A stretch of DNA of 27,369 bases. It comes from a virus. The notes under the pieces are model-generated. The model was not told the DNA's origin. It worked only from the letters and a program-made list of their open reading frames with translations, and searched no databases. The DNA is taken from IMG/VR virus record IMGVR_UViG_3300029259_000410, positions 1 through 27,369 of that record; one strand, 5' to 3'. Each line of letters begins with the position of its first letter. The stretch's first letter is position 1. Of the stretch, positions 3,355 through 27,369 are shown one piece after another. The translations under genes were made by a program, and so were the position numbers.

Positions 3355-3582
3355 TTATGCTCCTTGGAGGGCTAGTTTAAGTTCAGTGAAACCACCAACG
3401 TGGTCATAGTTAAAGTAAATCTGCGGGACTTCTACGAATCCCGCATCTTTAATCATTGCTAGTGCATGTGCGTTCTCAGGTGAACGGACGTTCACATAAG
3501 TAAAGCTTTTGCCTTCAGTAGCAAGTAATTGGATGGCTTGTTTGCAGTAGGAACACTGAGTGTGCCCATAGACTTTGTACAT
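3355..3582 (-). CDS. Glutaredoxin
   Basis: 75 residues, a minimal glutaredoxin fold. The dithiol active site is C10-S-Y-C13, the cis-proline motif is V52-P53, and the glutathione-binding GG pair is at G63-G64 (HVGGFTEL). It would reduce disulfides using glutathione; in phages it is often linked to ribonucleotide reductase during DNA synthesis, though no reductase lies in this window. The ATG overlaps the PhoH stop codon by one base and the stop abuts the M15 start, a tightly coupled arrangement. Confidence 0.9.
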   Translation of the reverse strand: MYKVYGHTQCSYCKQAIQLLATEGKSFTYVNVRSPENAHALAMIKDAGFVEVPQIYFNYDHVGGFTELKLALQGA

Positions 3583-4298
3583 TACATCACCCCTACTTCA
3601 GCAAAGCCCATAACAATTTCACGACAAATGTCTGAACGGACAATGTCGTCAAACTCATTAAAGTCAACATGCTGGACCATACGGGTTAAACGAGGAGACT
3701 TCTCACGGAGGTCTAGGAAATGACTTAAGCCAGAGCCCTGCGGTAGATCACATTGTGCTAAGTCACCACACAGCACAAGCGTAGAATTCTTACCAATACG
3801 GGTCACAATGGATATGAGTTCTTCCAGTGTGCAGTCTTCTGCTTCATCCACAATGATGAATGCGTTTGACCAGGAGTTGCCTTTCACATTCTCAAGAGGT
3901 ACGAAGTCAATCATGTGGATTTCTTCTTTGAGCATGTAACTAAGTTGCCCATGTGAGAACTCCTCACTCAGGGCCCCTAGAATCGGTCTGAGCCAGTGTT
4001 TCATCTTCTCCTCATGAGTGCCCTTGGCAAAGCCAACCGACCTAGAGGCGGACACTGCTGGACGCATAAGGATGATTTGAGAGACAGCTGACTGTTTTAA
4101 CCAGAGTGCGGCAATTCGTGCAGGGATATATGTCTTGGATGTACCTGGGTATCCGGTAGCAAAAGTAATGGGAGAACTCTTAATGTTGGTGATGTACTCA
4201 GCCTGTATTTGGTTAAGCGGCTCAAGAGGTGCAGCTGGTTGCCAGGTATTCTCAGCTTTTTCGGAACGACTAGCAGTTTTTCTAGCAGTTTTGCCCAT
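3582..4298 (-). CDS. phoH: PhoH-like P-loop ATPase
   Basis: 238 residues from the ATG at 4298, chosen because TAAGGA lies about 9 bp upstream; a TTG nine codons earlier at 4325 lacks that support. Walker A is G49-YPGTSK-T56 and Walker B is IIVDEAED (D151, E152). The typical RPAV...GFAKG...EKM segment (79-98) and the sensor motif CGDLAQCD (177-184) are present. PhoH proteins are ATPases, some fused to RNase-type domains, and are widespread in marine phages; their phage role is unsettled (RNA metabolism or phosphate stress). Walker A and B differ slightly from the common GxAGTGKT and DEAQN. It is first in the minus-strand island and faces the divergent tail operon. Confidence 0.88.
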   Translation of the reverse strand: MGKTARKTASRSEKAENTWQPAAPLEPLNQIQAEYITNIKSSPITFATGYPGTSKTYIPARIAALWLKQSAVSQIILMRPAVSASRSVGFAKGTHEEKMKHWLRPILGALSEEFSHGQLSYMLKEEIHMIDFVPLENVKGNSWSNAFIIVDEAEDCTLEELISIVTRIGKNSTLVLCGDLAQCDLPQGSGLSHFLDLREKSPRLTRMVQHVDFNEFDDIVRSDICREIVMGFAEVGVM

Positions 4299-4337
4299 AG
4301 TTTTAGTCCTTAGATGCGTTAACAAGGTGGTGGAGTG

Positions 4338-8105: not shown

Positions 8106-9025
8106 GTGATGGTTTTATTGCGTACAACGACAACAACGAAGTTCTTATATCTAGTGATAGCCGGAACTTACATTTTATACAGAAGAAAACAACGCCTACA
8201 TCTACAGTATTTTCTCTTAGTAGATACGGGGGAATGCGTAAGTGGATCTATAGTATAACTAATGTTAGCGTCACGCCTGTTCCGTTTATGTACATGCCTA
8301 CGGAAGACTTTTACGCCGTTGACCGTATAGAGAACAAAGGGGGAGGTAACTGGGATATAGAAGTTATTCGCTCAGGCACTTCTTCCTCTACTCCCGACTT
8401 GTACATATTCGGTGATCCTCGTGCCAGTACGTCAACAGATAGCTATGGAATGATGGTGTACCAAGATGATGGTACTGCAGCTTTTGACAGCAGGCTACGC
8501 CCCTTAGCTATTACAGGGGGGTTAAGTGTATCTCACCCAAGTAACCCAAGACCAAGCATCGATTCCTCAAACGTTAGTGCTAAGAATTGTGCAACTACGA
8601 TGAGAAGTCACTTTGCCCCTAATCAATTTAACACCCAAGTGGTGTCTAGCCAGCCTACTAAGGCAATATTCTGTTTCCTAAGCCTAGCACAAGCAGAGCG
8701 ACAGTTTACTGTTTCAGCGAGCGAGACTGTGTGCGACGGTGTCTCAGTGTACGGCAACTGCGTTGGCATACGTAGGGACTATGACTGGACCTCCACCTAC
8801 TGGGCATTCTATCGAGGGGGTATCAGATGGACTGGATCAGTCATAGAGGCTGGGTGGATCACGGTTGAGAAAGGGTGTAACTGGACCTACGATGTAGACA
8901 GTTACTTCGTAGGTATTGGTACCGGTGGGGATACAGGTACAGGCGGTAATTGGCCTTACAGCAACGAAACCATAAATACTTCTGCGGTTAGTGTAATTAT
9001 CGCAGATGGGGCTAGATATGATTAA
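8102..9025 (+). CDS. Tail-tip-associated protein, 307 residues
   Basis: Begins MSDGFIAYNDNNEVLISSD, similar to the preceding small protein and to proteins encoded downstream of gpJ in other phages. It is rich in Ser, Thr, Gly and aromatic residues and predicted mostly beta by eye, with glycine-rich GTGGDTGTGGNWP near the C-terminus. ATGA overlap with the upstream gene indicates coupled translation. It is likely a virion surface protein, perhaps a second receptor-contact protein. No enzyme motif is visible. Confidence 0.58.
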   Translation: MSDGFIAYNDNNEVLISSDSRNLHFIQKKTTPTSTVFSLSRYGGMRKWIYSITNVSVTPVPFMYMPTEDFYAVDRIENKGGGNWDIEVIRSGTSSSTPDLYIFGDPRASTSTDSYGMMVYQDDGTAAFDSRLRPLAITGGLSVSHPSNPRPSIDSSNVSAKNCATTMRSHFAPNQFNTQVVSSQPTKAIFCFLSLAQAERQFTVSASETVCDGVSVYGNCVGIRRDYDWTSTYWAFYRGGIRWTGSVIEAGWITVEKGCNWTYDVDSYFVGIGTGGDTGTGGNWPYSNETINTSAVSVIIADGARYD

Positions 9026-9218
9026 GCCATTTAAGATTCTATCCACTGTCACAGAACCAGAAGGCAGTACTGGTGTTCACTTTGAGGTCACCAAAGGTGT
9101 TGTTGTGGACGAGCACAGGACACGTACCTTTAAGCTGCGGGCATACCTATCTGTCCCCGTAGATGCAGACATAGACGCTGCTTTGTTTGCTTTTTTAGAT
9201 GAGGGAGGTTGGGTATGA
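9018..9218 (+). CDS. Hypothetical 66-residue protein in tail operon
   Basis: Start placed at ATG 9018 (MIKPFKILST), which overlaps the previous stop codon at 9023-9025; an alternative ATG at 9006 adds four residues. Its short beta-rich sequence (HFEVTKGVVVDEH, FKLRAYLSVPVDADID) ends in an acidic and aromatic tail (ALFAFLDEGGWV). No known family is recognised. It ends in an ATGA overlap with the next gene, so it belongs to the coupled tail operon. Confidence 0.55.
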   Translation: MIKPFKILSTVTEPEGSTGVHFEVTKGVVVDEHRTRTFKLRAYLSVPVDADIDAALFAFLDEGGWV

Positions 9219-9841
9219 CACACCAAGTAGCTGAGATTTACACTTCAGGTGAGCACATAAAGAAGACCTTCGCTTACACCGAGCAGCCAGAATATCTGTA
9301 CGACCAATTAAGGGAAGTCTTCCCCTGGATCAATAGAGAGAACTACATTTCTATTTCCACCCCCACTTATCACGAAATTCTTGAAGAGCAAGTCATGACA
9401 TGCTGTTTGCCACGGGGGTATTCTGTTGCCATGTTCGGGGAGAATACCATGCTAACCGCTAGAAAGTTTTGTATGGAGTCTGCGACTAGCTACATCAGGG
9501 CGTACTACCCATATACAGGGGATACACCAGATTGGCTCCCAGAGGGGTGCATTCTAATGTTCTACACAGAGAATGTGGCGGAGTACGGAAGACCTTTCAC
9601 TGAACAGTCTGCTACCTTTGGTGATTACTATTTTAAAGGTGATCCGGGGGTTGTTGAAGCTGCTTTTGATTTACCGGAGAAACGAGGCGGTGAATCTACT
9701 TACTACGGGGTGACTATGGTTAATGACAACGTCACCCGTGTAAAGCAGTACTGTTACGATTCACAGAGCACCTTCTTTAACTGGATTGCTTTGTACAATC
9801 TGGTCACAGGAGCGGATGGATCTACTGGCTGTAGACTCTAA
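9215..9841 (+). CDS. Hypothetical 208-residue protein in tail operon
   Basis: Start at ATG 9215, which forms ATGA with the previous stop and has GGGAGG six bases upstream; a TTG at 9209 is less likely. The sequence is rich in Tyr, Phe and Glu with several Cys, including an adjacent pair in VMTCCLPRG. It has no membrane span and no motif I recognise. Phrases such as FYTENVAEYGRPFTEQSATFG suggest a globular cytosolic or virion protein. Its position at the end of the fibre operon suggests a tail-associated or fibre-maturation role, which is inference only. Confidence 0.58.
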   Translation: MTHQVAEIYTSGEHIKKTFAYTEQPEYLYDQLREVFPWINRENYISISTPTYHEILEEQVMTCCLPRGYSVAMFGENTMLTARKFCMESATSYIRAYYPYTGDTPDWLPEGCILMFYTENVAEYGRPFTEQSATFGDYYFKGDPGVVEAAFDLPEKRGGESTYYGVTMVNDNVTRVKQYCYDSQSTFFNWIALYNLVTGADGSTGCRL

Positions 9842-9995
9842 GCCCATGAACGAAACCAGTAGAATAGAGTTCTCAACCAAGTCCATAGAAATTGATAGCA
9901 GTGATGGCAACCTACTGGTTGAAGCAGTCACATTAGTTCTTGTGATCGCAGCCTTATACATCGGCAAGAAGATTGTTGATAAGTATTTTAATTAA
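9816..9995 (+). CDS. Small single-span membrane protein
   Basis: 59 residues from ATG 9816 (AGGAG only 3 bp upstream) or 49 from ATG 9846 (no clear ribosome site). The C-terminal half contains one strong membrane span (VEAVTLVLVIAALYIG) followed by KKIVDKYFN, so the N-terminus may face the periplasm. It overlaps the end of the preceding gene. Possible roles are a second holin or antiholin-like protein or a small membrane factor for lysis. The size and topology do not discriminate. Confidence 0.5.
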   Translation: MDLLAVDSKPMNETSRIEFSTKSIEIDSSDGNLLVEAVTLVLVIAALYIGKKIVDKYFN

Positions 9996-10181
9996 GGAAT
10001 ACATTACTCCCCTATTGTCTAAACACAACATGTAGTGGTTAATTGTGCATTAAACCACAATATATTGTATTTTTATAAAATAAACCGTTAGAATATAAGC
10101 ACTTACCGGTTACCAAGTGCCTCGTCTTACTTTGGCTTCTATAATAGAAAGTCATCTCTCATCACATAGGTATCTCTCCAA
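9996..10181. promoter_or_regulatory. AT-rich non-coding region upstream of the head operon, with palindromes and a promoter candidate
   Basis: 186 bp without a convincing gene. It holds a perfect 12-bp palindrome ACAATATATTGT (10057-10068), an imperfect inverted repeat GTGGTTAA (10035-10042) / TTAAACCAC (10050-10058), and a weak sigma70-like pair TTGTAT (10065-10070), 18-bp spacer, TAGAAT (10089-10094). Just downstream is a hairpin GCACTT (10099-10104) / AAGTGC (10115-10120) that would sit at the 5' end of the message. It probably contains the promoter and operator for portal and downstream genes. The promoter call is tentative. Confidence 0.45.
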
Positions 10182-12317
10182 ATGAATGACTCTGCTATTA
10201 AAGTATCAGAGGTTGAGGCCAAGGGCTTAACAGGCTGGGCTAACGAACCTTCTGTTACAGACCTCAAACAAGATTTCACTGACGCTAAGAACGAGGCTGA
10301 TACACATGTATCAGATGTTAATCGTTGGCTTGATAATCTAAATGTAACTGGTAGCGCTAAGATCAACACCCCTGAAGGCAACTCAAAGTTACAGCCTAAA
10401 CTAATCCGTAAGCAGGCTGAGTGGCGTTACTCCGCTTTATCTGAGCCTTTCTTAAGCACGCCAGACGTATTTAACGTCGCTCCCGTTACCCATGAGGATC
10501 GGGAAGCTGCAAAGCAAAATGAGTTGGTTCTAAATAACCAGTTCAACACCAAGATTAATAAAACCCAGTTTATCGACGAGTACATTCGCACTGCAGTGGA
10601 CGAAGGTACTGTTATCGTCAGAGTCGGATGGGACTATGAAGAACGTGAAGAAGTGCGCTCTAAAACTGTCTATGACTATGTCCCTGCAAACGATCCCTCG
10701 ACCTTTGCCCAGTATCAACAACTGGCTTCCCTTGCTCAGAGCAACCCTGAGTCCTTCGCATCTCAAGTCCCTGAACACTTGCAAGAGGCATTGCGCCTTT
10801 CAATGGAATCAGGACAGATGCTCGTTCCGGTAGAAGCAGGCACCGAAGAAGTCACAGAAACTGTGACTGTTCGTAACCTACCTACATTGGAAATATGTGA
10901 TTACCAGAATGTTGTTATCGACCCCTCTTGTGGCGGTGACTTCACGAAAGCACGCTTTGCTGTGTACTCATTTGAAACGTCATTAGACGAGCTCAAACGA
11001 GATGGTAAGTACAAAAACTTAGAGAAGATTAACATTACCAACTCAACGATTCTGGGCAATCCAGACCACGTTGCAAGTGACAATAGTTCTTTTAACTTCA
11101 ATGATGAGCCACGTAAAAAGTTCGTTGCTCATGAGTATTGGGGCTACTGGGATATTGACGGTGATGGTATTGTAAAACCAATCGTTGCTGCATGGGTGGG
11201 CGATGTACTGATCCGTATGGAAGATAATCCATTTCCAGATCAAGCCTTACCTTTTGTAGTCGTACCTTATCTCCCAGTCCGTAAAAGTTTACACGGGCAA
11301 CCTGATGGGGAATTACTGGAAGATAATCAGAAGATTATTGGAGCCGTTACTAGGGGTATGATTGATATCCTAGGTAAGAGCGCTAACGGTCAAACCGGTG
11401 TTCGTAAAGATGCACTGGATTTAACCAACAAGCGTCGCTTTGATAAAGGGCTGGACTATGAGTTCAACGCTAACGTTGACCCTCGCCAAGCCATCTTCAT
11501 GCATACTTATCCAGAAATCCCTAACTCCGCTCAAATCATGTTGCAGTTGCAAAATGCAGAGGCAGAGTCACTGACAGGCGTTAAAGCATTTAACACTGGT
11601 ATCAGTGGTCAGGCTTTGGGAGACACCGCTACAGGCATTCGTGGGGCGCTTGACGCATCCTCTAAGCGTGAGCTTGGGATACTACGTCGATTGGCTGACG
11701 GTATTATTCAGATTGGTCGTAAGTTTATTGCGATGAATGCTGAATTCCTATCTGAAGAAGAAGTCATTCGTATTACTAATGAAGACTTTGTGACCATTCG
11801 TCGTGATGACTTGGGCGGTAACTTTGACTTAAAGCTGTCTATTTCTACTGCAGAGGAAGACAACCAGAAAGCGCAAGAACTGGCATTCATGTTACAGACT
11901 ATGGGTAACTCGATGGACCCATCAATGTCTAAGATGATTCTTTCTGACATTGCCCGTCTACGTAAGATGCCAGATCTTGCTAAGAAGATTGAAGACTATG
12001 AGCCACAACCAGACCCAGTTGCACAGCAAAAAGCCCAGCTAGAACTAGCCAAGCTACAAGCTGAGATCCAGGAACTTCAGAGCCGTGCTCAAGAGAACCA
12101 GGCACAGGCGCAATTGGATATGGCTAAGGCAGGTGCTGAACAAGTGAAGGCCGGTAACGTACAGGCTGACACTGATATGAAGAACTTGGACTTTGTAGAG
12201 CAAGAGTCTGGCGTTAAGCAAGAACGTGATCTACAGAAACAAGGTGAGCAAGCCAAATCTAACGCCAAGTTAGAAATGGTTAAAGCATCTATTAACAGAC
12301 CACAACAAACTAATTAA
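10182..12317 (+). CDS. Portal protein
   Basis: 711 residues, in the range of large podovirus portals (P22 725, N4 763). The N-terminal third includes PKLIRKQAEWRYSALSEPF and FIDEYIRTAVDEGTVIVRVGWDYEE. The central core has YLPVRKSLHGQPDGELLEDNQKIIGAVTRGMID, and later GDTATGIRGALDASSKRELGILRRLADGI, features recurring in podovirus portal proteins. The C-terminal 110 residues are a Gln/Ala/Lys-rich helix (AQLELAKLQAEIQELQSRAQ), consistent with a long portal barrel or tail. It would form the dodecameric DNA channel that binds terminase and the tail. It is followed by a terminator and then the head genes. The ribosome site is weak. Confidence 0.82.
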   Translation: MNDSAIKVSEVEAKGLTGWANEPSVTDLKQDFTDAKNEADTHVSDVNRWLDNLNVTGSAKINTPEGNSKLQPKLIRKQAEWRYSALSEPFLSTPDVFNVAPVTHEDREAAKQNELVLNNQFNTKINKTQFIDEYIRTAVDEGTVIVRVGWDYEEREEVRSKTVYDYVPANDPSTFAQYQQLASLAQSNPESFASQVPEHLQEALRLSMESGQMLVPVEAGTEEVTETVTVRNLPTLEICDYQNVVIDPSCGGDFTKARFAVYSFETSLDELKRDGKYKNLEKINITNSTILGNPDHVASDNSSFNFNDEPRKKFVAHEYWGYWDIDGDGIVKPIVAAWVGDVLIRMEDNPFPDQALPFVVVPYLPVRKSLHGQPDGELLEDNQKIIGAVTRGMIDILGKSANGQTGVRKDALDLTNKRRFDKGLDYEFNANVDPRQAIFMHTYPEIPNSAQIMLQLQNAEAESLTGVKAFNTGISGQALGDTATGIRGALDASSKRELGILRRLADGIIQIGRKFIAMNAEFLSEEEVIRITNEDFVTIRRDDLGGNFDLKLSISTAEEDNQKAQELAFMLQTMGNSMDPSMSKMILSDIARLRKMPDLAKKIEDYEPQPDPVAQQKAQLELAKLQAEIQELQSRAQENQAQAQLDMAKAGAEQVKAGNVQADTDMKNLDFVEQESGVKQERDLQKQGEQAKSNAKLEMVKASINRPQQTN

Positions 12318-13904: not shown

Positions 13905-15071
13905 ATGGCACAAGCATATAATGATCCTGCTGGCGGAACAGCTTCCGACGTTGGAAGTCAAATCCGTACGGATTACCACGTTAAAAAAGCCCTGATTGAA
14001 ACTGTTAAAGAACAGTATTTCTCTCAATTAGCCGATGTTACTGCAATGCCTAAGAACTTTGGCAAGAGCATCAAGCTATACCACTACCTTCCTTTGTTAG
14101 ATGACCGCAACACAAACGACCAAGGCATTAATGCTTCTGGCGTTACAATTGATGATGGTAATCTCTACGGTGGTTCTAAGGACGTAGGCGCTATCCCCGG
14201 TAAGTTGCCTGCTCTTTCTGAGCAAGGTGGTCGTGTTAACCGTGTTGGTTTCAAGCGTGTAGAGTTAGAAGGCTCAATCGAGAAGTTTGGTTTCTTCGAT
14301 GAGTACACTCAAGAGTCTTTGGACTTTGACACTGACGGCGAATTGATGATGCACATTAACCGCGAAATGCTTCGTGGTGCTAACGAGATCACTGAAGATG
14401 CTCTTCAGGTAGATTTGTTAAACGGTGCAGGCACTATCCGTTACGCAGGCGCAGCAACTTCTAATGCTACTGTAGCTGAAGACATGTTGGTTACTTACTC
14501 AGACTTGATGAAGTTAGCCATCGACTTGGACAACAACCGTACACCTAAGCACACTAAAGTGATCTCTGGTTCACGTATGGTAGACACCAAGACCATCGCT
14601 GCTGCTCGTTGCATGTACATTGGTTCTGAGTTGATCCCAACTCTACGTGCTATGACTGACCTGCACAACAACCCAGCGTTCGTTCCAGTACAGCAGTATG
14701 CTGATGCCGGTAACGTGCTAAACGGTGAGATTGGTTCTGTAGATCAGTTCCGTATCGTAGTTGTACCAGAAATGATGAAGTTTGCTGGCGCTGGTGATGA
14801 TGACGCAAATAGTGTTTCTCACACTACCAATGACAAAGTAGACGTATTCCCAATGCTAGTTGTTGGTGACGGTGCTTTCACTACTGTTGGTTTCCAAACT
14901 GACGGCAAATCTGTGAAGTTCAAGATTACTCACAAGAAGCCTGGTGAAGCGACTGCTGATCGTAGTGACCCATACGGCGAGACTGGCTTTATGTCAATCA
15001 AGTGGTACTACGGTTCTTTGATCTTACGTCCAGAGCGTATTGCTGTTATCAAGACTGCTGCTTCTTTGTAG
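13905..15071 (+). CDS. Major capsid protein, N4 gp56-like family
   Basis: 388 residues, near the size of N4 gp56 (about 400). The pattern matches what I know of the 'N4-gp56 family' coat proteins: an N-terminal region with [22 protein letters not shown], the central [20 protein letters not shown], then the domain with [15 protein letters not shown] and the late [15 protein letters not shown] and [25 protein letters not shown]. It would adopt the HK97 fold and form the icosahedral shell. AGGAG lies 9 bp before the ATG, the strongest ribosome site in this block, consistent with high expression. A strong terminator follows directly. Confidence 0.85.
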
Positions 15072-16757: not shown

Positions 16758-19118
16758 ATGGGTTTTTTCTCTAGTAAACGTAAAGTCTCGGTTGCAGCTA
16801 ACTCTGTTCCTATAATAGATCGTGAAGTTGATCTAATAGGTGAATCCCTTATGCGAGCTATCCTACGGAAAGGTAACATTTCCTCTGGGATAGTTGAAGA
16901 CATGGTTAACTCAAATGGGCGTAACATTGTACGCGCCTACAACTACGCTAAGAGCGATTATCACTACGGGTTACCCAGTGGCACTACTGAGGTTGTAAAC
17001 TACACTGAGAGTGCCTTAATAAGCGCTGTAGAGGCATCAACCGGTGACACAGTACTTGAACTGCGTGAAGTCTTACATGACAGTGGTAATCCGGGAATCG
17101 AAGCCACCTGGTATTTGGATACTGTACGCAATAGGTCTTTATTAACTGGCGAGCTAGCCACCTTACCCCCTACTTTAATTACAGAAATAAATTCCATCTG
17201 GAATAATTGGGTCAATTCTTGTAGTAGCACACTTGCCGCTCACAAGAATGACATCGAAGCAGATTACCCTTCTACAATGCTCTACGTTACAGAGAATGCT
17301 ACAGACGCCAGTAACAACCCTTGTACAAAAAACATACAAGACGTTGTCAGCGTAGCGGCAGAGTATTTCTATAATGACAGCCGTTCGCATAGTACTCAGG
17401 TAGATGACATTGATTATCTGGTAGACAGTACGGGCTACCCAACTGGGCATAGATACACTTATACAACCCGTCAGCACTTCGCACTGACTGGTGTGGTTTC
17501 TTATGTACTAAGTACTGTACGTACTGTAACTCCTGAATATGCTGACGGAACCTTTGGAGCGCCTTACACTGAGTTTGTTCCTGACAATCGTATCAACACT
17601 AACTACCCATTCAGTGATGTGTCGAACCATACTTTCACAGAAACCACAGCTCTTGCGGGCACTTACGATTTTAGAGCCTTAAAGTATTACGTACAGTACG
17701 CATTAGCTGATGGTTCAGTTAAATCGTGGCTGTATGACACCAACAGTAATACTTACCCTGGCTTAGATTATACGGAGGCTGCTGGATCAGAGTCTCCTTT
17801 CTACCCGGTTGTCCCATTACGGTACGAGAACACAGACTACTGTCACGAAGACGAGTGGGACACAGTGCGTTACCTGACGAGTAAGAAATTACTTAGTATT
17901 ATGGGTATGGATATACAAGCGTTACGTGAGGGTATTAACGAGAACCCTAACATTGATGACGTAGACCATGCATATTTCATGTTTGGTGTGCAGCTCCAAG
18001 ACGAAAGCAAGTCTGCTAAACGTTATCTGTGCGCTTTCTTTGAGCACATGGGTTCTTTACAGAGCCAAGCTATTCGCATTACAGAAGGTGGCATGGACAT
18101 GCGGCTCTCTTGGGACAGTGTGGCTACCGTAATTCGTTCTGGGCGCATTGGTACCAAAGGCAAAGCTAATTCATCTATCAACTCAGCTGCAAACCAAATG
18201 GTTTTTCGTGTGCAGTTTGACGAGGACAGTTACAAAGAAGTCACTGTTACAGGGCTGCTTCACACTAACTACGTCTACGAAGGTAAGACGGTTGAGACAA
18301 CAGTGGCAGACACCTTAGAGGAGGGCGAGTACAACTTCATCATTCCCTTACACGCAGGTGTAGTAGAGAGCTTACCTACGATAGTACGGAACGAGCTTTA
18401 CTTCGATGCAATGCAACTAGTGTTCTACAGCTACGAGGTGACTTATGTGGCTTGGTACCAGCAAGAGTGGTTCCTTAACTTAATTAAGATAGTGGCTGTA
18501 ATCATTACTATTGCTTCAATTGGCACACTGGCAAGCGCGGGGTATGAGGCGTTTATTCTCGCCACAGCTGCAGGTGCGAGCACCCTAGCTGCGCTAGGTG
18601 TTGCGGCGCAAGTACTCATCATGCAAATACTTGAAGGGATGATTACATCATTCATATTTAAGTTGGTCTTGTCTCAGGTTGACCCTGACTTTGCAATGAT
18701 CATGGCGACCGTCCTGCTTGTCTACGGTGGAATTAAAGGCTTTAAGGCAGGAGGCATCGTAGAAGGGTCGAATGCGGAGATGCTACTGAAGCTGTCAACA
18801 GGCATTACTAGTGGTGTTCAACAAAACTTGGCTCAATCCACCTTAGATCTTAAAAGTGAAGTAGACGCTTTCTCAAAAGACGCCGATGAAAAGATGGATG
18901 CGTTGGACGAGATTAATAAACAGTTTGCTTTAACAGGTATAATTGATCCAATGGAATTCATTATGTCTGAACCCATGATCAGTCTCAACGAGAGCCCTGA
19001 ATCGTATTATTTCAGAACAGTTCATTCGGGTAATGTTGGTGCAATGTCATATGACGCTATCACTAACTACCACAACTTAATGCTGGACTTACCCCAACCC
19101 CAACATACGTATATTTAG
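16758..19118 (+). CDS. Large internal virion / ejection protein candidate with membrane-active segment
   Basis: 786 residues. Residues 1-555 are a large soluble domain rich in Thr, Tyr and Asp (many YTYTTRQHF- and YADGTFGAPYT-like beta phrases). Residues about 573-690 are strongly hydrophobic (WFLNLIKIVAVIITIASIG, LAALGVAAQVLIMQILEG, FAMIMATVLLVYGG). The tail is helical and polar. A hydrophobic block inside a large virion protein fits a protein that inserts into the host membrane during DNA ejection. In N4, several proteins encoded between the capsid gene and vRNAP are virion components. The start is awkward: ATG 16758 has only AGG 2 bp before it and lies right after a terminator. Confidence 0.6.
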   Translation: MGFFSSKRKVSVAANSVPIIDREVDLIGESLMRAILRKGNISSGIVEDMVNSNGRNIVRAYNYAKSDYHYGLPSGTTEVVNYTESALISAVEASTGDTVLELREVLHDSGNPGIEATWYLDTVRNRSLLTGELATLPPTLITEINSIWNNWVNSCSSTLAAHKNDIEADYPSTMLYVTENATDASNNPCTKNIQDVVSVAAEYFYNDSRSHSTQVDDIDYLVDSTGYPTGHRYTYTTRQHFALTGVVSYVLSTVRTVTPEYADGTFGAPYTEFVPDNRINTNYPFSDVSNHTFTETTALAGTYDFRALKYYVQYALADGSVKSWLYDTNSNTYPGLDYTEAAGSESPFYPVVPLRYENTDYCHEDEWDTVRYLTSKKLLSIMGMDIQALREGINENPNIDDVDHAYFMFGVQLQDESKSAKRYLCAFFEHMGSLQSQAIRITEGGMDMRLSWDSVATVIRSGRIGTKGKANSSINSAANQMVFRVQFDEDSYKEVTVTGLLHTNYVYEGKTVETTVADTLEEGEYNFIIPLHAGVVESLPTIVRNELYFDAMQLVFYSYEVTYVAWYQQEWFLNLIKIVAVIITIASIGTLASAGYEAFILATAAGASTLAALGVAAQVLIMQILEGMITSFIFKLVLSQVDPDFAMIMATVLLVYGGIKGFKAGGIVEGSNAEMLLKLSTGITSGVQQNLAQSTLDLKSEVDAFSKDADEKMDALDEINKQFALTGIIDPMEFIMSEPMISLNESPESYYFRTVHSGNVGAMSYDAITNYHNLMLDLPQPQHTYI

Positions 19119-19129
19119 TGAGGAACACA

Positions 19130-19642
19130 ATGCAAGACGATTCACAAAACCAAGGTACTCAGTCTAATCCTATTATGGATTTCATTAAGCAAATGACTGG
19201 CTGGGGCGGTAACCAAGATGCCATGCAGCCTGCCCAGTTCCAACAACTTAACATGTCTCCTTATGCGCCGAAGGCACCCTCTTTTATGGATCAGGCGGGT
19301 ATGCAAAACACTATGGGTAGCTATGGCTCAAACACAGGTTATCAGCCTACTTTAGGGGATAAATTGTTTGGCTACCAAGACGGTGACATGCAGTACGGTG
19401 CGATGGCCCCAGGGTTATTACAGGGTGCAGGCAGTATTGCACAGTCTATTCTTGGCTGGGGTCAATTGTCTGAAGCTAAGAAGCAGAATGCCTTCACACA
19501 AGAAGCTTGGCAAAAGCAGTATGACAATCAATCCACACTGACTAATGCTAGCTTACGTGATCGACAGAGCTCACGAGTAGCGGCTGCCCCTGGTGCTTAC
19601 CAATCTGTAGGCGAGTACATGCAACAGAATAAGGTGGGTTAA
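19130..19642 (+). CDS. Ejection-protein-like (T7 gp14-like) protein
   Basis: 170 residues from ATG 19130 (GAGGA about 6 bp upstream); a GTG at 19118 that would overlap the previous stop is less likely. The N-terminal half is Gln, Asn, Met and Gly rich with little structure. The middle GLLQGAGSIAQSILGWG is mildly hydrophobic. The C-terminal NAFTQEAWQKQYDNQ and LRDRQSSRVAA resemble the C-terminal helices of small podovirus internal virion proteins such as T7 gp14. Position just before other candidate ejection genes fits. No enzyme motif is seen. Confidence 0.6.
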   Translation: MQDDSQNQGTQSNPIMDFIKQMTGWGGNQDAMQPAQFQQLNMSPYAPKAPSFMDQAGMQNTMGSYGSNTGYQPTLGDKLFGYQDGDMQYGAMAPGLLQGAGSIAQSILGWGQLSEAKKQNAFTQEAWQKQYDNQSTLTNASLRDRQSSRVAAAPGAYQSVGEYMQQNKVG

Positions 19643-19645
19643 CAG

Positions 19646-21025
19646 ATGCCTATTACTTGGAAGAATATTGCCGGACCTAACTTTGAAAGTGGCAACGCTC
19701 TAATGAAAGCTGGTGCAGAGTCAATGACAGGTGGCTTGGATTCATTAGCTAAAGCTGCTCAAACTTATGGCACTCAGCAGCAAGATGAACGTATTGCCAT
19801 ACGTGATGACAACACACAGCAGTTTCTTGATCAGATCGACCAGATGAAGAACATGGACAACTACAACAACCAAGCTGGTCAGTTTAGTCAGTCTGCGTTG
19901 TCAGGTCAGAATGTAGATGCCAGTAAAATAATGGGGGCTTACGGTCAGCAGAAGACAGATATTCGTAACTTGATAAAGAGTGACAATGCTTTTGATACCA
20001 GCCAGTATAATAACACTGAGCGTCTTAGAAAAATTACCGAACAACCAATATTAACTCAGTACAACACTATGGTTGCAAGTGGCAACCACGCAGATGCACA
20101 GGAGTATTATGAAAATAATAAGGACAGTGTAAGTGATTGGTCTGCGGCACTTGATTCAGGTCAGCAGGCAAAACGTGATGACAAGGCATATACCGATGCC
20201 GAAACCTTCACAACGCAAACAGTAGACGCAGGTAACATCTACACAGACATATTGCATGCTCCAGGTACTAATGAAGGTAATATCGTTAAGACCTTACAAA
20301 AGAAGTTTGATGACGCAGGGATTCCACAAGGTGTTGTCCAGAGTTTCATAGAACAAGCTAGGACTCAGTACAAAGCGGGCGTGGCGCTAACCGATGTAGA
20401 TAATCAAAAAATCGCCTCACTTGGAGCGGGTTTTGATCAACAACTTGCTGACGTTAACGCACTGTTCGATGCGGAGGTGGCTGACAACTCAACTCGCCTA
20501 ACTAACGACGAGTTTGAGAATTACAAAAGAGACTCAGACAGTTACACTAATCAAAGCCAAGCTATTGATTACATTTCTTCTAAGTCTGGTGAATCAAATT
20601 GGTGGTCATTTGATAGTAAGACATGGGCGGCTAGAGGTATTCAGGGTGGTGCAAACGGTGCAAACGCAACGCAAGATATGCTGGTAAATTTACAAAGAGC
20701 TATTACATCAGACGGCTCTAAGGCGCAGAAAGGTCTACTCAAGGCAACGGGTGGGCAGATTCCTGGCTTTGTAGTTAAGCGTGCGTTTGATCGAGTAGGT
20801 CAAAAGGAAGACGGGGAGTGGAATGTAGATGAGTTCTATAACGGGCTAAAAGTAGAGTGGGATCAGTATGTTAACCAGCATGGGGCAATCCAAATCCGCG
20901 AGAAGCTTGATCAAGATCGTAAAATGGCATTAGATTCGCTCAATAAAAACAAGCTCCAAAATGTAAGCGCACTAAGCACTCAATTAAGGAACAAGCAAAA
21001 GAATGCATTTAGCAACTCTAACTAA
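19646..21025 (+). CDS. Helical internal virion protein candidate
   Basis: 459 residues, almost wholly polar alpha helix with many Gln, Asn, Asp and Lys, and no membrane span. It begins MPITWKNIAGPNFESGNALMKAG, where phage ejection proteins often start with a phrase like 'NWKNIAAPNF'. It lies 3 bp after the gp14-like gene and directly before the vRNAP gene. In T7 the ejection set is gp14, gp15 and gp16; this could occupy the gp15 position. Function is inferred from order and composition only. A terminator follows. Confidence 0.58.
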   Translation: MPITWKNIAGPNFESGNALMKAGAESMTGGLDSLAKAAQTYGTQQQDERIAIRDDNTQQFLDQIDQMKNMDNYNNQAGQFSQSALSGQNVDASKIMGAYGQQKTDIRNLIKSDNAFDTSQYNNTERLRKITEQPILTQYNTMVASGNHADAQEYYENNKDSVSDWSAALDSGQQAKRDDKAYTDAETFTTQTVDAGNIYTDILHAPGTNEGNIVKTLQKKFDDAGIPQGVVQSFIEQARTQYKAGVALTDVDNQKIASLGAGFDQQLADVNALFDAEVADNSTRLTNDEFENYKRDSDSYTNQSQAIDYISSKSGESNWWSFDSKTWAARGIQGGANGANATQDMLVNLQRAITSDGSKAQKGLLKATGGQIPGFVVKRAFDRVGQKEDGEWNVDEFYNGLKVEWDQYVNQHGAIQIREKLDQDRKMALDSLNKNKLQNVSALSTQLRNKQKNAFSNSN

Positions 21026-21108: not shown

Positions 21109-24100
21109 ATGAGTAAGCATACCCCTATCAGTGACCAAGAAAATGCTGAGATTGATAAAGCTATAGAAGTTAATAAGTACGTGGATAATTCAGATCTTAA
21201 TCTCAACATAGCTAGGCTAAGAGCGCAGGCAAACCAGAACCCAGATCCATCGCTTATCAAAACCGCTCTTAATTCATTACCAGATAAACAACCTGTATTT
21301 ACTCGATCACCAGATTCCCTATCTTCTGAGGCGATGGCTGCTCCGCAGCAAGTCGCCCCACAAAAAGTCCCTACTTTTTCTGAAGCTAAACAAGCGATAA
21401 CTAAACCATTAGCTGACGCTAAGATCACTAAGTTAGCTGAGATAGACAAGACAGCTGACCTAGAGAATGTCGTGAACACTAATCCACTCATGTGGGAGCA
21501 AGAACTAGACCGCATGGCTAAAGTGCGTGAAGAGACCGCAATACGGAATCGAGACGCAGTAGTGACTGATGAAGAGCTAGCTACTATCCCAGGGCAATTA
21601 GTAAATGCGGGTGTTGCAGCGCTGGATGGTGGTGCTAGAGTCGCTGGGCAAATTGGATCACTCCCATTTAACTTAGAAGCTGCGAAAACTCTGACTGCGA
21701 TGAGCCCAGAGGTACAGGAAGCTTTTGAAGCGTCGCTAGTTAATCAGGGTAAAAATAAAGCCATTGATGAGCGTCGTCAGGAGATTCAGAAAAAAGCAGT
21801 TAAAGAAGGTATGACGCCTGGGCTACAAGCTGAGTTGACTAAACTAGATACCATTCAATCTAATATACCGTCATTAAGCGAAGAACAGACTGCGTTGTTA
21901 GGCAGTCCTTCGGCGTTAGGTAACAACGAAGACATGGCGTTACGTCCTGGCGAGAAACCTTTGTTTCCTGAAGGCAGTGAGCTATACAACCAAACTTACG
22001 TACCTAAAACCAACCAACAAGAAATGGATGGTTTACTGGCTACCCTTGAAACAGCTGAAGACATTGATAATTTCTGGAATCAAGACACTTGGCTTTCAGG
22101 TAAATTTAACGACTCTGATCGTGATGTGTTGCTTGAGGACTTTGGTAAAACCTACGATAAGTGGTTTGGTGACCACAATAGTTTCGACAGCCCTGAAGAC
22201 ACACTAGCTGTTGCCGGTATGATCCTTGAAGGTGCAGGTGATTTAATTAGTAACCCAGGTGCTACGATGGAGTACGTGGCAGAGAACCTTCCCCAGTTAC
22301 TGATTGGTGGTGTGGTCAAAGGCGGTCTAGCACTAACGAACGTAAGTTACGCTATGGATGAATACCGTAAAGGTATACAGGAAGTTTTGGCTGAGACAGG
22401 TGCGCTCCCTGATCATGAGCAATCAGGCGAAATGCTAGCATGGTCACTGAGTCTTGCCGTTGCTGAACAACTCGGTGATGCTTCTGTTATCAGAGGACTA
22501 CGTAGGTTTAAGCCATCAAAAAAAGTAACTGATCCTGTCGCAGAAGCGGTTAAGAAAACAGTTCGTGATTCACTAATCAAACAGTTGGGCCAACGTACTG
22601 GCACTGTAGCCAAATCTTTTGTGGGTGAAGGTTCAACAGAGGGTTTTCAGACAGCCGTTGAGAGCACAGAAGTCAGGGGCAAAGACCTAAGTACTGCTGA
22701 TCCTAAAGAGGTCTACACTGCTGCGATGATTGGCGCAGGAGCTGGTTCAGGCACTGTAGCACCCGGACAGACACTAGGTGCTACAAAGGATGTTGTACAA
22801 ACTGCGGCTTCTAATCGTATGAATGCTTGGGCAGGCCAAGCTAAGGTACGAAGAGAGAAATCTGCAGCAACACAAGCTGCTGATGAGCAAGCATTAGGTA
22901 AAGCAATTGAGACAGGTGACTTCACTGAATTTGCTGGTAATGATTCTACAAATTCTGTGGAAAATACGGCTAAAGTTGAACTGGTTCAAAAAATAGGTAC
23001 TATTGCCGCCGCTTATGAAGACTTAGTTGGAAGAGCAACTGAAACACAGCCTGTTGATTTACAAGAATCACGCAAGCTAGTTAACGGTGCTGCACAAGTC
23101 ATTCAAGTTGAGCATGAGGCTATTACAGCGCTTGAAAAGAAGATAGTTGCTAGCACTAGTCAAAGTGAACAAAAAAAGCTAAACAAAGAATTAGTACAAC
23201 GCAAAACAGCGCGTGACCAGGCAACTGAAGCTGTTGAGGCAATGAAAGCCAAGCACACTAAACTTTTAAATGTAGGAGCATTAGTAGATCAAGTGACTAC
23301 CGCCACAACGCGGAGCACTGAGTTTAAGATCGCAGGACAAGAGATACTGGAGTTGCTTCAAGTAAGCCCTGAGTCATTAGCCAATGCTAAAGACTTACTA
23401 TCTTCACCTCACTGGACTAAGGAAGAGCGCAACGAACTTCAGCTGCATATCACTGCTGAACAGTCAAAGGACACGTTACGTAATAGTCCAGAATTAAAGT
23501 CAACGCAAAGTGTACAAAACAATGTGATTGATGGTGGTGACGGTTATAAAGGTGCAGAGCAGTACAGGTCAAGTATCTTGTCAGCGTTGGATTTTGGTAA
23601 CGACTCTATGGTGAACCGCGAGCTGAATCAGCTACGTACGTTTGTCAAAAGTCACACCAATAAGGCCAAAGCGTTTGCCTTGGCTTATGCACCTTACGGG
23701 CGTAAGTCAGACAATCCGGGACAACCACTTAGTGCTTCTCAAGAAGAAACAGAAGCAAAGAAATATGTCGAGTCAACATGGAAGACAAAAAAAGGGAAAC
23801 CTTACAATGTCAGCGATAAGTTCAGTCCGCTAGTTGATAATGTTCAATATGAGTCACAGGCTCTACAAGATACGCTAGCGTATTTAGAGGCTGTCATTAA
23901 TGCAAGGAAAGCGCGTAATGAAGAAACAAAGACAGAAAAAGTAAGTACAAGAACTGCTGAATCAACGAAGGAGCCAGACGCCAATCCAAACGCCTCTGTT
24001 GATCAACAGCCATCTCAAGGAGAGACTACTTCTACTGATACCCAAGGTACTAGTCAAAGTGGCGCTAATGTACAGAGTTCAACTGTAGAAGGGAATACTG

Positions 24101-27100
24101 GTCAAACAACCAGTGTTCCAGATTCGGCTACCCAAAATAACACTGAATCAGAGACTGTTCTTGAAAATACACAAGAAAATCAACAGGTTACAGAAAGTGA
24201 AGCGTCTGCGGATACTGTTGTTACTGAAACAGTTGAAAAAGATAATAGTAATCGAGTTACTGTTTACGATGCCACGGGTAACTCTTACTCTGCTGAAATT
24301 GTTTCTGTTAGTGATCAAGGCACGACCATTGTTAAAAACCAGGCTGGCGAAGAAGTCATTCTTGGCTCAGATCCAAGTGCATTAGAGGTAAATGCAAAAG
24401 ATCCTGAATACAAAGTTGATGCTAAGGGTAATAAGCACAACGGTGCTACCATCTCAGCATTGAGCGATGCTCAATTAAAAGAATTGATCTCGTCTGAGGA
24501 AGCTTTAAGAGCTGGTTCTAGTAGTCGTAGCGTCAATGCACTTACAAATATCAACGCCGCTAAACTGGAACTTAAGAGAAGAGAGAGTAAGCCTGAGCAG
24601 AAAACGGCTGATGCCGCACAAACTGTAGAAGCAGAAACCGTTGAACCAACTATTGAAGAGCAAGTAGCAAACAGCGACCTTAAAGAATCGTTTAGCTTTA
24701 ACAAGAGCAAAACAAACATTCTTCATCACATAGGTAACCTTGCTGATGCGCTTAAAGGTAATCTGGACTCAGTGGCTAAGTTTCTTAGGCAAGAGTCAGT
24801 TAATGAGTTAGAAGAGCAATCAATACGTAGCTTTGGTTATTTTGCTGATTCAGTATCAGATAGCTTACAGGGTATTTTTGATGTCCGAAGGGCATCAAAA
24901 GACAGTCCAACAGCTAAGAAAGGTGATGTACTCACACAAACTGACCCTGCTCAAAACTTTGCAGATGAGAACGGTAATCTAACTGAGGAAGCCAGCACCG
25001 CTATCGCTGCAGCTGTCTATAATTGGATCGCAACAAAAGCGGGTTCTACGCTGTACAACAATGACTTTTCTATTGCTGCCTTACTGGGTATTCAAGAAGA
25101 GAATGTCACTAATGCGATGCGGGAAATGTTTGGTGAAGGCGGTGTGTCACAGACCACAGTGTCGCGCCTACTGGGTGCAGAGATTGTCCGTAACCTTGGC
25201 TTGCGTAATAAAGATAAAACCATCCCAGCTAACCATTTGCCTCGCTTAGAGCAGGCAATGGGTAATCTGGCGATTGCTTATATGCGTGATCAAGGCATTG
25301 TAGAGTCTTACGCTGTCACAGCTAAAGAGTTAGGTGAGCTGACATCTAGGGAATCTAAAGCCGATTTAGTAATGCTTCAGGCTACATCAGAAGTTAATGA
25401 GTCAGGTGATGCTACGTTATCTGAAGAATTATCTTCTTTTGTAGAAATGGAACAGGCAAGTAATTATGTGGTTGGTCGTTTATTTGAGACTACCTTTGCC
25501 AAGGAATTCCCATCGCTGACGCCTATAAACACAACAGTGACTAAGCAGAAAGGTACTGTAAAAAACATTGCTGAAAAAATGCTTGCTATCCTACGTAGGC
25601 ATCAGATTCGTGCTCACCAGATTGCAGGTGACACAGATGGTGCTTTGATGTTCCTGACACGTAAGCAGCAGGAAGACGCGCTAGGCGTTGTTACTGACGA
25701 GTCCATTAATAAGTTGCATGAGTCTCGACGCAAGGGTGCCAAAGGCAAGCAGCGCACACAGCGTGCTGAATTAAATAATTACGCTGAGTTCCGTGAGCGT
25801 ATGTTAAACCAGAAATCTGGTTTGAAAAGCCCCTTCTACTTTGCTCATGAGATCTGGAAGAACCAACGCATTGGCATGGTAGGTAATGTGGTAAACACCC
25901 AGCGTTCTAAGATCCAGCGTGGCTTGATTCGTATGAATGCATGGGTCACTCAAGTTGATCCTAATAACAACAAGCAACGTACATTGTTCTTAATGGGAGT
26001 CGCTCAGGGTATTGGTGTCACAGTAAGTGCTGGGGACAATAAGCGAAAGTTTGATGCATTAACTCGCAGAGAAGCCCTTGACGAAGTTGAAGCAAAACTT
26101 GCTCAACCTGTCTTTAAAAAAGCGATTGATGCTTTAGTTAAGATTCAGGATGTGCGTGATCTCAGTGAATCTGAAGTACAACAGCTACAACAAGCTATTG
26201 TTGACGGTATTAAAGCTGGAGGTGAAGGGTCACAGACGTTACACGCCTTAACTAACTACGCACGTATGAAGGCAGCTAACGGTGACAAATTTACATCAGA
26301 CCTTGCGCTTGAGATAGATGGCATTGCCAATGGCATTATGATTGGTACGATGCAGTTTATGCCAGGGAACGCACGAATTAAGTCTATGCTGGCAAGGGGT
26401 GGTATCTTTCTTAATAACATGCGTTCTTTTGGTGAGTATAAAGCGCGTGGGAATAAAGATACCTACGAAAACCTTGCATCTATCTGGAGCCAATCGTTAG
26501 CTGTATTAAAAGCAAGAAATCCTGCACAGTTTATTGTTGCGGAGCGGTTTTTTACAATTAACCGGCAATCAGCCAAAGATCCAGTACTAACAACGGTCTA
26601 CGGCGCAGGTGTCAAAGGCATTGTTAACTCAGTATCTGACGCGTTTATTGAAAACATCTTGATCGAAATAGAAACTATTGTGAATGGGCCCGAATCTACG
26701 GGTAAACAAGCAATGGCGCTTAAGAAACTAGACGAAGACCTGAAGTTATTAACCCAAGGTAAGTCGATATTGCCTACTCTTAATCCAAATGAAATCATGG
26801 AAATGAAACTGGACTATCAGGGTATTTACGCACTACGTAGCTGGGTAGAAAATAATCATGGTGTTGCTGTAATGAATGCCATTAAACAGGAGTTCGGTGA
26901 GTTCATTAAGAACCGCACGCGATACAATGAAGTAATCAACGCCATTAACGATCAGTTTGTTGGACTGTTTGAGCAAGCGATTGCTGACGCACGCAAAGAG
27001 GCAATAGATGACGGGACAATTACCAAGAACGATGACTTACCTGTTGAGACTATAGAAAAAATTATAGCTGATCTACAAGGTGCAATCCCTGGTATTAACA

Positions 27101-27369
27101 ATGCTTTCAGTGTGGATCATGCTGAGCTAATGCAGCTAGCTAAACAAGGGCGTAGTGAAGGAAGTGCCAAGCTTTATAAAGTAGAAACTAAACTGGGCCG
27201 CAAAGTAGATGGGGTAAAGTCCATTAACTCAACAGGTCAGGCGCGTGATTGGGTCGATGATCTTGGTGTGTCCCCTACAGTCCTTAGTATTCACTCATTG
27301 GATGCTGCAGTTGCGCTACAAACTCTGGGGTTTGCTTCAGTACTTAACGTACACGATGGTTTCTATACC
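21109..27369 (+). CDS. Virion RNA polymerase (N4 vRNAP-like), 3'-truncated by window
   Basis: Open from ATG 21109 to the window edge (2,087 residues, no stop). Single-subunit T7/N4-type RNA polymerase hallmarks: a probable T/DxxGR-motif counterpart near R1587 (IWKNQRIGMVG); motif A EIDGIANGIMIG with catalytic D1737; motif B R1819-x3-K1823-x7-Y1831-G1832, the exact spacing of T7 R627/K631/Y639; motif C VHDGF with H2082 and D2083, like T7 HDSF. The RNAP domain would begin near 1180, by analogy with N4 mini-vRNAP. Before it lie a helical N-terminus with a Gly/Ala-rich VGEGSTEGFQ...AAMIGAGAGSGT segment (505-550), coiled coil (about 570-720) and a Ser/Thr/Gln/Glu-rich linker (about 945-1044). N4 vRNAP is 3,500 residues, so a large C-terminal part likely lies beyond the window. 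It is probably packaged in the virion and starts early transcription. Confidence 0.87.
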   Translation, partial: MSKHTPISDQENAEIDKAIEVNKYVDNSDLNLNIARLRAQANQNPDPSLIKTALNSLPDKQPVFTRSPDSLSSEAMAAPQQVAPQKVPTFSEAKQAITKPLADAKITKLAEIDKTADLENVVNTNPLMWEQELDRMAKVREETAIRNRDAVVTDEELATIPGQLVNAGVAALDGGARVAGQIGSLPFNLEAAKTLTAMSPEVQEAFEASLVNQGKNKAIDERRQEIQKKAVKEGMTPGLQAELTKLDTIQSNIPSLSEEQTALLGSPSALGNNEDMALRPGEKPLFPEGSELYNQTYVPKTNQQEMDGLLATLETAEDIDNFWNQDTWLSGKFNDSDRDVLLEDFGKTYDKWFGDHNSFDSPEDTLAVAGMILEGAGDLISNPGATMEYVAENLPQLLIGGVVKGGLALTNVSYAMDEYRKGIQEVLAETGALPDHEQSGEMLAWSLSLAVAEQLGDASVIRGLRRFKPSKKVTDPVAEAVKKTVRDSLIKQLGQRTGTVAKSFVGEGSTEGFQTAVESTEVRGKDLSTADPKEVYTAAMIGAGAGSGTVAPGQTLGATKDVVQTAASNRMNAWAGQAKVRREKSAATQAADEQALGKAIETGDFTEFAGNDSTNSVENTAKVELVQKIGTIAAAYEDLVGRATETQPVDLQESRKLVNGAAQVIQVEHEAITALEKKIVASTSQSEQKKLNKELVQRKTARDQATEAVEAMKAKHTKLLNVGALVDQVTTATTRSTEFKIAGQEILELLQVSPESLANAKDLLSSPHWTKEERNELQLHITAEQSKDTLRNSPELKSTQSVQNNVIDGGDGYKGAEQYRSSILSALDFGNDSMVNRELNQLRTFVKSHTNKAKAFALAYAPYGRKSDNPGQPLSASQEETEAKKYVESTWKTKKGKPYNVSDKFSPLVDNVQYESQALQDTLAYLEAVINARKARNEETKTEKVSTRTAESTKEPDANPNASVDQQPSQGETTSTDTQGTSQSGANVQSSTVEGNTGQTTSVPDSATQNNTESETVLENTQENQQVTESEASADTVVTETVEKDNSNRVTVYDATGNSYSAEIVSVSDQGTTIVKNQAGEEVILGSDPSALEVNAKDPEYKVDAKGNKHNGATISALSDAQLKELISSEEALRAGSSSRSVNALTNINAAKLELKRRESKPEQKTADAAQTVEAETVEPTIEEQVANSDLKESFSFNKSKTNILHHIGNLADALKGNLDSVAKFLRQESVNELEEQSIRSFGYFADSVSDSLQGIFDVRRASKDSPTAKKGDVLTQTDPAQNFADENGNLTEEASTAIAAAVYNWIATKAGSTLYNNDFSIAALLGIQEENVTNAMREMFGEGGVSQTTVSRLLGAEIVRNLGLRNKDKTIPANHLPRLEQAMGNLAIAYMRDQGIVESYAVTAKELGELTSRESKADLVMLQATSEVNESGDATLSEELSSFVEMEQASNYVVGRLFETTFAKEFPSLTPINTTVTKQKGTVKNIAEKMLAILRRHQIRAHQIAGDTDGALMFLTRKQQEDALGVVTDESINKLHESRRKGAKGKQRTQRAELNNYAEFRERMLNQKSGLKSPFYFAHEIWKNQRIGMVGNVVNTQRSKIQRGLIRMNAWVTQVDPNNNKQRTLFLMGVAQGIGVTVSAGDNKRKFDALTRREALDEVEAKLAQPVFKKAIDALVKIQDVRDLSESEVQQLQQAIVDGIKAGGEGSQTLHALTNYARMKAANGDKFTSDLALEIDGIANGIMIGTMQFMPGNARIKSMLARGGIFLNNMRSFGEYKARGNKDTYENLASIWSQSLAVLKARNPAQFIVAERFFTINRQSAKDPVLTTVYGAGVKGIVNSVSDAFIENILIEIETIVNGPESTGKQAMALKKLDEDLKLLTQGKSILPTLNPNEIMEMKLDYQGIYALRSWVENNHGVAVMNAIKQEFGEFIKNRTRYNEVINAINDQFVGLFEQAIADARKEAIDDGTITKNDDLPVETIEKIIADLQGAIPGINNAFSVDHAELMQLAKQGRSEGSAKLYKVETKLGRKVDGVKSINSTGQARDWVDDLGVSPTVLSIHSLDAAVALQTLGFASVLNVHDGFYT

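Follow-up and report, generated by a model that had tools for sequence, protein, structure and literature searches.

The window analysed here is the whole 27,369-nucleotide stretch of IMG/VR virus record IMGVR_UViG_3300029259_000410, a fragment of an N4-like (Schitoviridae-type) phage whose structural block follows the N4 gene order. Its right end holds the gene for a virion RNA polymerase (vRNAP), the equivalent of N4 gp50, which is complete at 3627 amino acids in a near-identical IMG/VR contig (L005; 4 differences from the window in 2087 residues). The PHROG 2206 family profile matches the window protein collinearly, N-terminal residues 177-942 to profile positions 37-816 (E 6e-42) and the remainder to positions 789-1843 (E 7e-140). 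The N-terminal domain (NTD) comprises two helical parts, NTD1 and NTD2, and is followed by a low-complexity linker and the RNA polymerase (RNAP) domain (Table 1). An earlier note, made from the sequence alone, had proposed a membrane-crossing or packaging module joined to the polymerase in the place of T7 gp16; its coordinates hold, with 22621 and 24240 falling at residues 505 and 1044. We read the protein as a Schitoviridae vRNAP whose residues 1-944 form its delivery half, NTD1 belonging to a domain family that phages also put at the head of other giant proteins and NTD2 being vRNAP-specific so far. To this reading as a whole, including the membrane association, tether role and order of events proposed below, we assign a probability of about 0.65.

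Table 1 Features of the vRNAP gene and neighbouring genes in the window.
Feature	Position	Strand	Remarks
vRNAP gene (N4 gp50 equivalent)	21109..27369	+	ATG at 21109; 2087 codons in window, open at right end
NTD1 (residues about 134-580)	21508..22848	+	helical, weakly hydrophobic Ala/Gly segments; limits approximate; family also in non-polymerase giants
Hydrophobic segment (residues 164-182)	21598..21654	+	Kyte-Doolittle 19-residue peak 0.90
Hydrophobic segment (residues 366-384)	22204..22260	+	peak 0.92
Hydrophobic segment (residues 397-415)	22297..22353	+	peak 1.27; aligned to the N4 stretch with putative membrane helices 224-278 (PMC12633501)
Hydrophobic segment (residues 443-461)	22435..22491	+	peak 1.11
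EGSTEGFQ motif (residues 507-514)	22627..22650	+	conserved E507 and E511
Hydrophobic segment with GAGAG (residues 535-553)	22711..22767	+	conserved G542; Kyte-Doolittle peak 0.88; model helix 532-550
NTD1-NTD2 connector (residues 551-652)	22759..23064	+	mostly low confidence in structure model
NTD2 (residues about 650-940)	23056..23928	+	helical; GGDGYKG at 809-815; conserved F845 and K852; in vRNAPs only here
Ser/Thr/Gln/Glu/Asn linker (residues 945-1044)	23941..24240	+
Extra segment (residues 1045 to about 1165)	24241..24603	+	ends in a second short low-complexity stretch; best BLAST among 22 other vRNAPs E 0.049
Single-subunit RNA polymerase domain (from residue about 1147)	24547..27369	+	cut by window end
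gp51-family protein (periplasmic-tunnel ejection protein of N4/DEV)	19646..21025	+	N4-like order; hhalign
Gene in place of N4 gp52 / DEV gp73 (outer-membrane channel)	19118..19642	+	position; PHROG 2646 E 9e-19, function unstated there
Genes in gp55, gp54 and gp53 places	gp53 place 16758-19118		by gene order
Capsid	13905-15071		N4-like gene order
Genes in gp58 and gp57 places	between portal and capsid		by gene order
Portal	10182-12317		N4-like gene order

An alignment of 23 vRNAP N-termini contains only three invariant columns, M1, G542 and K852, with E507, E511 and F845 nearly invariant. E507, E511 and G542 lie in the stretch at residues 505-550 that had been singled out as Gly/Ala-rich and of a kind seen in giant polyvalent phage proteins (VGEGSTEGFQ...GAGAGSG, residues 505-547). 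Its composition does not stand out (at 30% Gly+Ala it ranks 115th among 898 46-residue N-terminal stretches), but its conservation does: in a MAFFT alignment E507 is kept in 60 of 62 vRNAP rows and E511 and G542 in 61 of 62 each, and all three residues are present in 10 of 10 non-polymerase giants. The non-polymerase giants scanned with Pfam carry polyvalent-protein domains. The window contains a single EGxxE[G/A]xQ pattern, where 0.01 would be expected. Because the structure model places two helices over the motif, at 476-519 and 532-550, the stretch is probably not itself a low-complexity linker. The structure model predicts long helices at 562-720, where a coiled coil had been placed. Composition and hydropathy were computed on the L005 copy, which is identical to the window inside 505-550 and 945-1044.

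Whether the N-terminal domain exists without a polymerase, as the earlier note had proposed to find out, depended on the query. A search with the window's own N-terminus returned 126 phage records, annotated among the 60 listed as RNA polymerase, as hypothetical, not at all or, once, as "cell envelope integrity inner membrane protein"; in viral contigs, all 23 confirmed loci from the window NTD search also match RNAP in frame with the NTD. The search that changed this result used an alignment of four N4-type N-termini against viral contigs and yielded 63 loci. Under a strict rule, 41 combine RNAP and the NTD1 profile in one frame; 6 more, whose frames are split, cut or diverged, were counted as vRNAPs (L057, L079, L091 and L092 by RNAP, L082 by NTD2, L111 by its neighbour gene); and 16 encode giants without an RNAP match. 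L111 is a cut locus, called by eye. When scored with a profile of NTD1 made from vRNAPs only, the giants at L094, L098, L099, L101, L102, L104, L105, L106 and L109 reach 44-58 bits, while those at L095, L096, L100, L103, L107, L108 and L110 form a second, more distant group missed by the default search with that profile. A PHROG scan matched residues 53-410 of the L098 giant to PHROG 2206 positions 89-432 (E 7e-28) and residues 52-479 of the L096 giant to the same family (E 2e-9). Conversely, the N-termini of two vRNAPs match PHROG 10089, "DarB-like antirestriction" (E 2e-7 and 3e-7; E of 1 or below in 3 of 23 members). Read in frame, the 16 giants reach at most 2.8 bits for the polymerase. 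NTD2 has no match in giants and was seen only in vRNAPs among the sequences searched. The idea of a separable N-terminal module, linked to the polymerase, is supported, and since its first half occurs without polymerase the homology of the N-terminus is not confined to N4 vRNAPs.

Other candidates for a separate occurrence were discarded. Loci L046 and L048 both proved to be vRNAPs. In a tblastn search of phages with the window's motif region (E up to 10; 168 records), 45 of the 60 listed matches were vRNAPs, unnamed proteins of vRNAP-named phages or matches at E < 1, and the remaining 15, MuF-like mycobacteriophage or unnamed proteins, stood at the chance level of E 6-9. Plasmids searched with a D267 segment gave no match, and genome contigs searched with A3 gave 10 pattern stretches, none of them confirmed.

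The frames of the giants range from 1,853 to >3,000 residues in the available part, and several extend past the locus end. A Pfam scan of four giants (L096, L098 and L107 of the 16, plus L117) found InPase, LPD39, LPD1 and weak LPD5 in L098 and L117; InPase, LPD38, LPD5 and LPD1 in L096; and ddrB-ParB and methyltransferase matches in L107. The L117 giant lies in a Stenotrophomonas maltophilia genome contig, and others lie in Aeromonas phage phiARM81mr and Vibrio phage 1.205.O. In the 13 giants examined for it, a gene of 442-504 residues stands directly upstream. In phiARM81mr (L115, about 9001-10728) the giant frame is open from ~1.7 kb ahead of the annotated start at 10729, so the published annotation misses NTD1. 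Within the vRNAPs, no LPD match was found by Pfam in the window parts or in the post-polymerase residues of L005. That C-terminal region carries an HExxH (HELIH at 2322 of L005, outside the window), as do all 23 vRNAPs examined, and matches no Pfam family. Separately, the first ~146 residues of the VBP32 and Vibrio 1.097.O vRNAPs (L008, L013) are common to another giant family, PHROG 37474 (E 2e-33 and 9e-29), and those of 1.097.O are lysozyme-like (Pfam E 2e-4, just under cut-off).

Convergence might account for the likeness of NTD1 in vRNAPs and giants, both having arrived at Ala/Gly-rich helices with an ExxxE-type signature and no common descent. Low-complexity helices can mislead profiles, and the window-type NTD matches the N4-type NTD and the giants over just 61-87 columns around the motif. 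The hhalign comparisons of N4-type NTD1 (39 rows) speak otherwise, extending over 295 columns with the Stenotrophomonas-type giants (99.65%, E 4.6e-25; reversed-column control 0.21) and over 315 with the second group (97.2%, E 4e-11; control 0.32). Of the 23 vRNAP N-termini, 8 are found by the Stenotrophomonas-type profile alone (all with E no higher than 5e-6), likewise 8 by the combined giants profile and one, weakly (13.7 bits), by the second-group profile; 138 reversed or block-shuffled control sequences never exceeded 6.4 bits, against real matches of up to 54. NTD1 is also N-terminal in vRNAPs and giants alike, and we regard convergence as distinctly improbable.

For the window type itself (18 rows), hhalign gave 51% with the N4 type (E 1.5e-4) and 37% and 76% with the two giant groups (E 3.5e-4 and 2.4e-5). 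The VBP32 type (5 rows) was not significant against the giants (E 0.11 and 0.017); pooled with the window type it reached 92% at E 6e-7, in an alignment of 87 columns around the motif (0.34 for the reversed control). Reversed-column controls were all at 0.018 or worse, and gp51-position families, used as unrelated helical controls, at 0.16 or worse. As judged from these sequence comparisons, the link of NTD1 to the giants is strong for N4-type vRNAPs; for the window it rests on the vRNAP family and the motif region.

A quick NTD1 tree puts the giants on the N4-type side (Shimodaira-Hasegawa-like approximate likelihood ratio test, SH-aLRT, 98), among long branches, and in the approximately unbiased (AU) test the giants as a single clade were not rejected (p 0.75). 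The vRNAPs of PG11, D267 and V1238A (L007, L022, L016) have an N4-type NTD1 in the quick tree and in BLAST clusters but a window-type polymerase in the quick tree. Placing the three with the window type gives a slightly better likelihood (AU p 0.58), which leaves congruence of NTD1 and polymerase unrejected; module swapping among vRNAPs was therefore set aside as unsupported.

The low-complexity linker is real and compositionally extreme. Ser, Thr, Gln, Glu and Asn make up 65 of its 100 residues, against a maximum of 44 across 1652 100-residue stretches outside 945-1180, and only one residue in 100 is F, W, Y, I, L or M. Its lowest 40-residue entropy is 2.96 (mean minimum 3.20 and lowest 2.94 in 200 whole-protein shuffles). 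It does not stand right before the polymerase, as had been thought: residue 1007 of N4, where the solved polymerase starts (PMC12633501), aligns to ~1147, so ~100 residues intervene. By BLAST, residues 1041-1180 have no clear relative in the 22 other vRNAPs; the PHROG 2206 profile is nevertheless continuous from residue 977. The extra segment starts beta-looking (VTVYDATGNSYSAEIV...), with a possible counterpart in pVco-5 at E 1.0. In the RPP1 vRNAP (L018), residues 1023-1095 form an ART-PolyVal domain between NTD and polymerase (E 2.4e-9), the slot occupied by the window's extra segment; ART fusion to vRNAP has been noted before (PMC5512222).

Five weakly hydrophobic segments punctuate NTD1, peaking at residues 164, 366, 397, 443 and 535 in the window, at 118, 237, 347, 421 and 460 in N4 and at 66, 181, 202, 302 and 380 in the L098 giant. 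By eye, the layout is alike in all three, with the last peak at the conserved Gly helix. For N4, according to a 2025 preprint, the NTD has two helical subdomains by prediction and putative membrane helices at 224-278; the isolated NTD was incorporated into nanodiscs, an inner-membrane complex is modelled, and the linker at 907-1006 is flexible, of low complexity and 100 residues long (PMC12633501). The hydropathy layout and the N4 nanodisc result together would favour NTD1 as an inner-membrane anchor and the linker as a tether. NTD1 might instead be a packaging or portal-docking domain, its motif steering giant internal proteins into the capsid and the membrane association in vitro being incidental. 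The examined giants are encoded beside structural or virion-type genes and the hydropathy is marginal, as such a role would allow, but in N4 encapsidation is assigned, citing earlier work, to the C-terminal region of vRNAP and injection to the N-terminus (PMC5512222, PMC9569702), and the entry of the isolated NTD into nanodiscs also speaks against it; we consider packaging unlikely.

Several results weigh against the delivery-half reading. The window's 19-residue hydropathy peaks are low (0.9-1.3), and those of the window, N4 and L098 are all below the usual transmembrane cut-off of 1.6; such peaks would be in keeping with Ala/Gly-rich helices which first travel through a channel and later settle at the membrane. 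The structure model of the window NTD is moderate (mean predicted local distance difference test, pLDDT, 64; predicted template modelling score 0.44), which makes its topology uncertain, and Foldseek found no PDB match to it at E 0.001 or better. Profiles of the giants alone miss the window NTD (-11, -26 and -30 bits), and one hhalign run aligned the window type with N4-type-plus-giants off the motif, over 30 columns. The N4-type NTD profile is rare in bacterial genomes (1 of 369 of the class, 2 of 297 of the family, each count including the central S. maltophilia genome; the second family match, L120, is a cut locus). The gene upstream of the giants has no detectable homology to gp51; this says little, since in two vRNAP phages, V1238A and D267, the gp51-position genes are not picked up by that test either.

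Against viral models, six Foldseek matches reached E 0.001 or better: a vRNAP in first place, four unnamed proteins and a "coil containing protein" (template modelling score 0.26 or less). A polyvalent ART protein at E 0.014 was not counted as evidence, and the structure predicted for the N-terminus of one giant, at mean pLDDT 36, was left unused.

The portal-to-gp50 order of the window matches N4 and phi50-12, some genes being assigned by position only. In hhalign, a gp51 set including the 19646..21025 protein matches the N4-type gp51 set at 97.5% (E 8e-12). The vRNAP gene is thus the third ejection gene, after gp52- and gp51-type genes, by position and gp51 family, with gp52 placed by position and PHROG 2646 only. 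N4 vRNAP is described as the third ejection protein and an analogue of T7 gp16 (PMC12633501), and in DEV three ejection genes are co-transcribed and proposed to be functionally equivalent to gp14, gp15 and gp16 (PMC10925440). The place of T7 gp16 proposed earlier therefore stands as a position in the operon. It does not extend to homology. A gp16 homologue fused to the polymerase would fit that shared place, and Schitoviridae vRNAPs are said to be distantly similar to the Autographiviridae internal core transglycosylase (PMC9569702). Against this, none of six profiles gives more than 3.7 bits for T7 gp14, gp15 or gp16, or more than 0.6 for gp16 itself, Pfam finds no transglycosylase or lysozyme match in the window NTD or the rest of the window protein, and gp16 is absent from the 50 listed PDB fold matches, none of which is significant. 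Common descent with gp16 is not supported, and we hold it to be very improbable. Elsewhere in the window, a minus-strand gene at 3582-4325, ahead of the structural block, encodes a PhoH-like ATPase (Pfam E 1.3e-47), and the 2-1027 protein has repeated "FNQDISxWDVSNV"-like units that look similar to BspA-type repeats.

Family membership, gene order, linker composition and the occurrence of NTD1 apart from polymerase are observations; beyond them, a course of delivery may be proposed for the window phage by analogy with N4. The gp52- and gp51-type proteins would form a channel first, and the vRNAP would then exit the capsid. The Ala/Gly-rich helices of NTD1 would associate with both the inner membrane and the end of the tunnel, and NTD2 with the flexible linker would tether the polymerase during cytoplasmic refolding and the start of early transcription.

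The central idea of a delivery NTD, linker and polymerase in the gp16 place is already in print for N4 and DEV, and the N-terminus of vRNAP is given an injection role in a Pectobacterium phage paper (PMC9569702). What is new, on profile evidence and within the open-licence literature searched, is that the NTD1 family also heads polymerase-less giants. The 2017 polyvalent-protein survey, which places the N4-like virion polymerase among phage polyvalent proteins, recovered the polymerase module alone in searches with the N4 N-terminus plus polymerase, and found no such relatives (PMC5512222); the NTD1 result gives a positive answer there. How a 383 kDa polymerase crosses the envelope is posed as an open question in the N4 preprint (PMC12633501). 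If the front half of vRNAP is shared with other giants, its role becomes testable in several phages, and the giants gain a marker that may mean "ejected". We tentatively extend this, at somewhat less than an even chance, to NTD1 as a portable delivery leader of ejected phage giants, an N-terminal module with ExxxE and a conserved Gly in Ala/Gly-rich helices. Through the ejection channel it would bring RNA polymerase in N4-like phages, and pyrophosphatase-type, LPD, methyltransferase or ParB-type domains in temperate phages. A single module should then serve unrelated cargoes.

Compared with known systems, the window protein shares with T7 gp16 the position of third ejection gene and, in published models, the character of a giant ejected protein, but no sequence or fold similarity was found for its NTD. 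The large polyvalent proteins of temperate phages and prophages (InPase, LPD1, LPD5, LPD38, LPD39 or ddrB-ParB/methyltransferase; PHROG 10089) likewise carry the NTD1 family at the N-terminus, behind a gene of 442-504 residues; they differ in having other enzymatic cargo, no RNAP or NTD2 match in the available part and an upstream gene without detectable gp51 relation. Closest are the vRNAPs themselves. The window NTD is about 27-28% identical to those of phi50-12 and DEV and has no BLAST match to the N4 NTD at E 1 or better, and the window differs from N4 in its ~100 extra residues between linker and polymerase. N4 gp50 and DEV gp71 nevertheless have the same layout as the window protein (seen in full in L005): an NTD, a low-complexity linker, a single-subunit RNAP and a large C-terminal part with an HExxH past the polymerase, all encoded by the third ejection gene.

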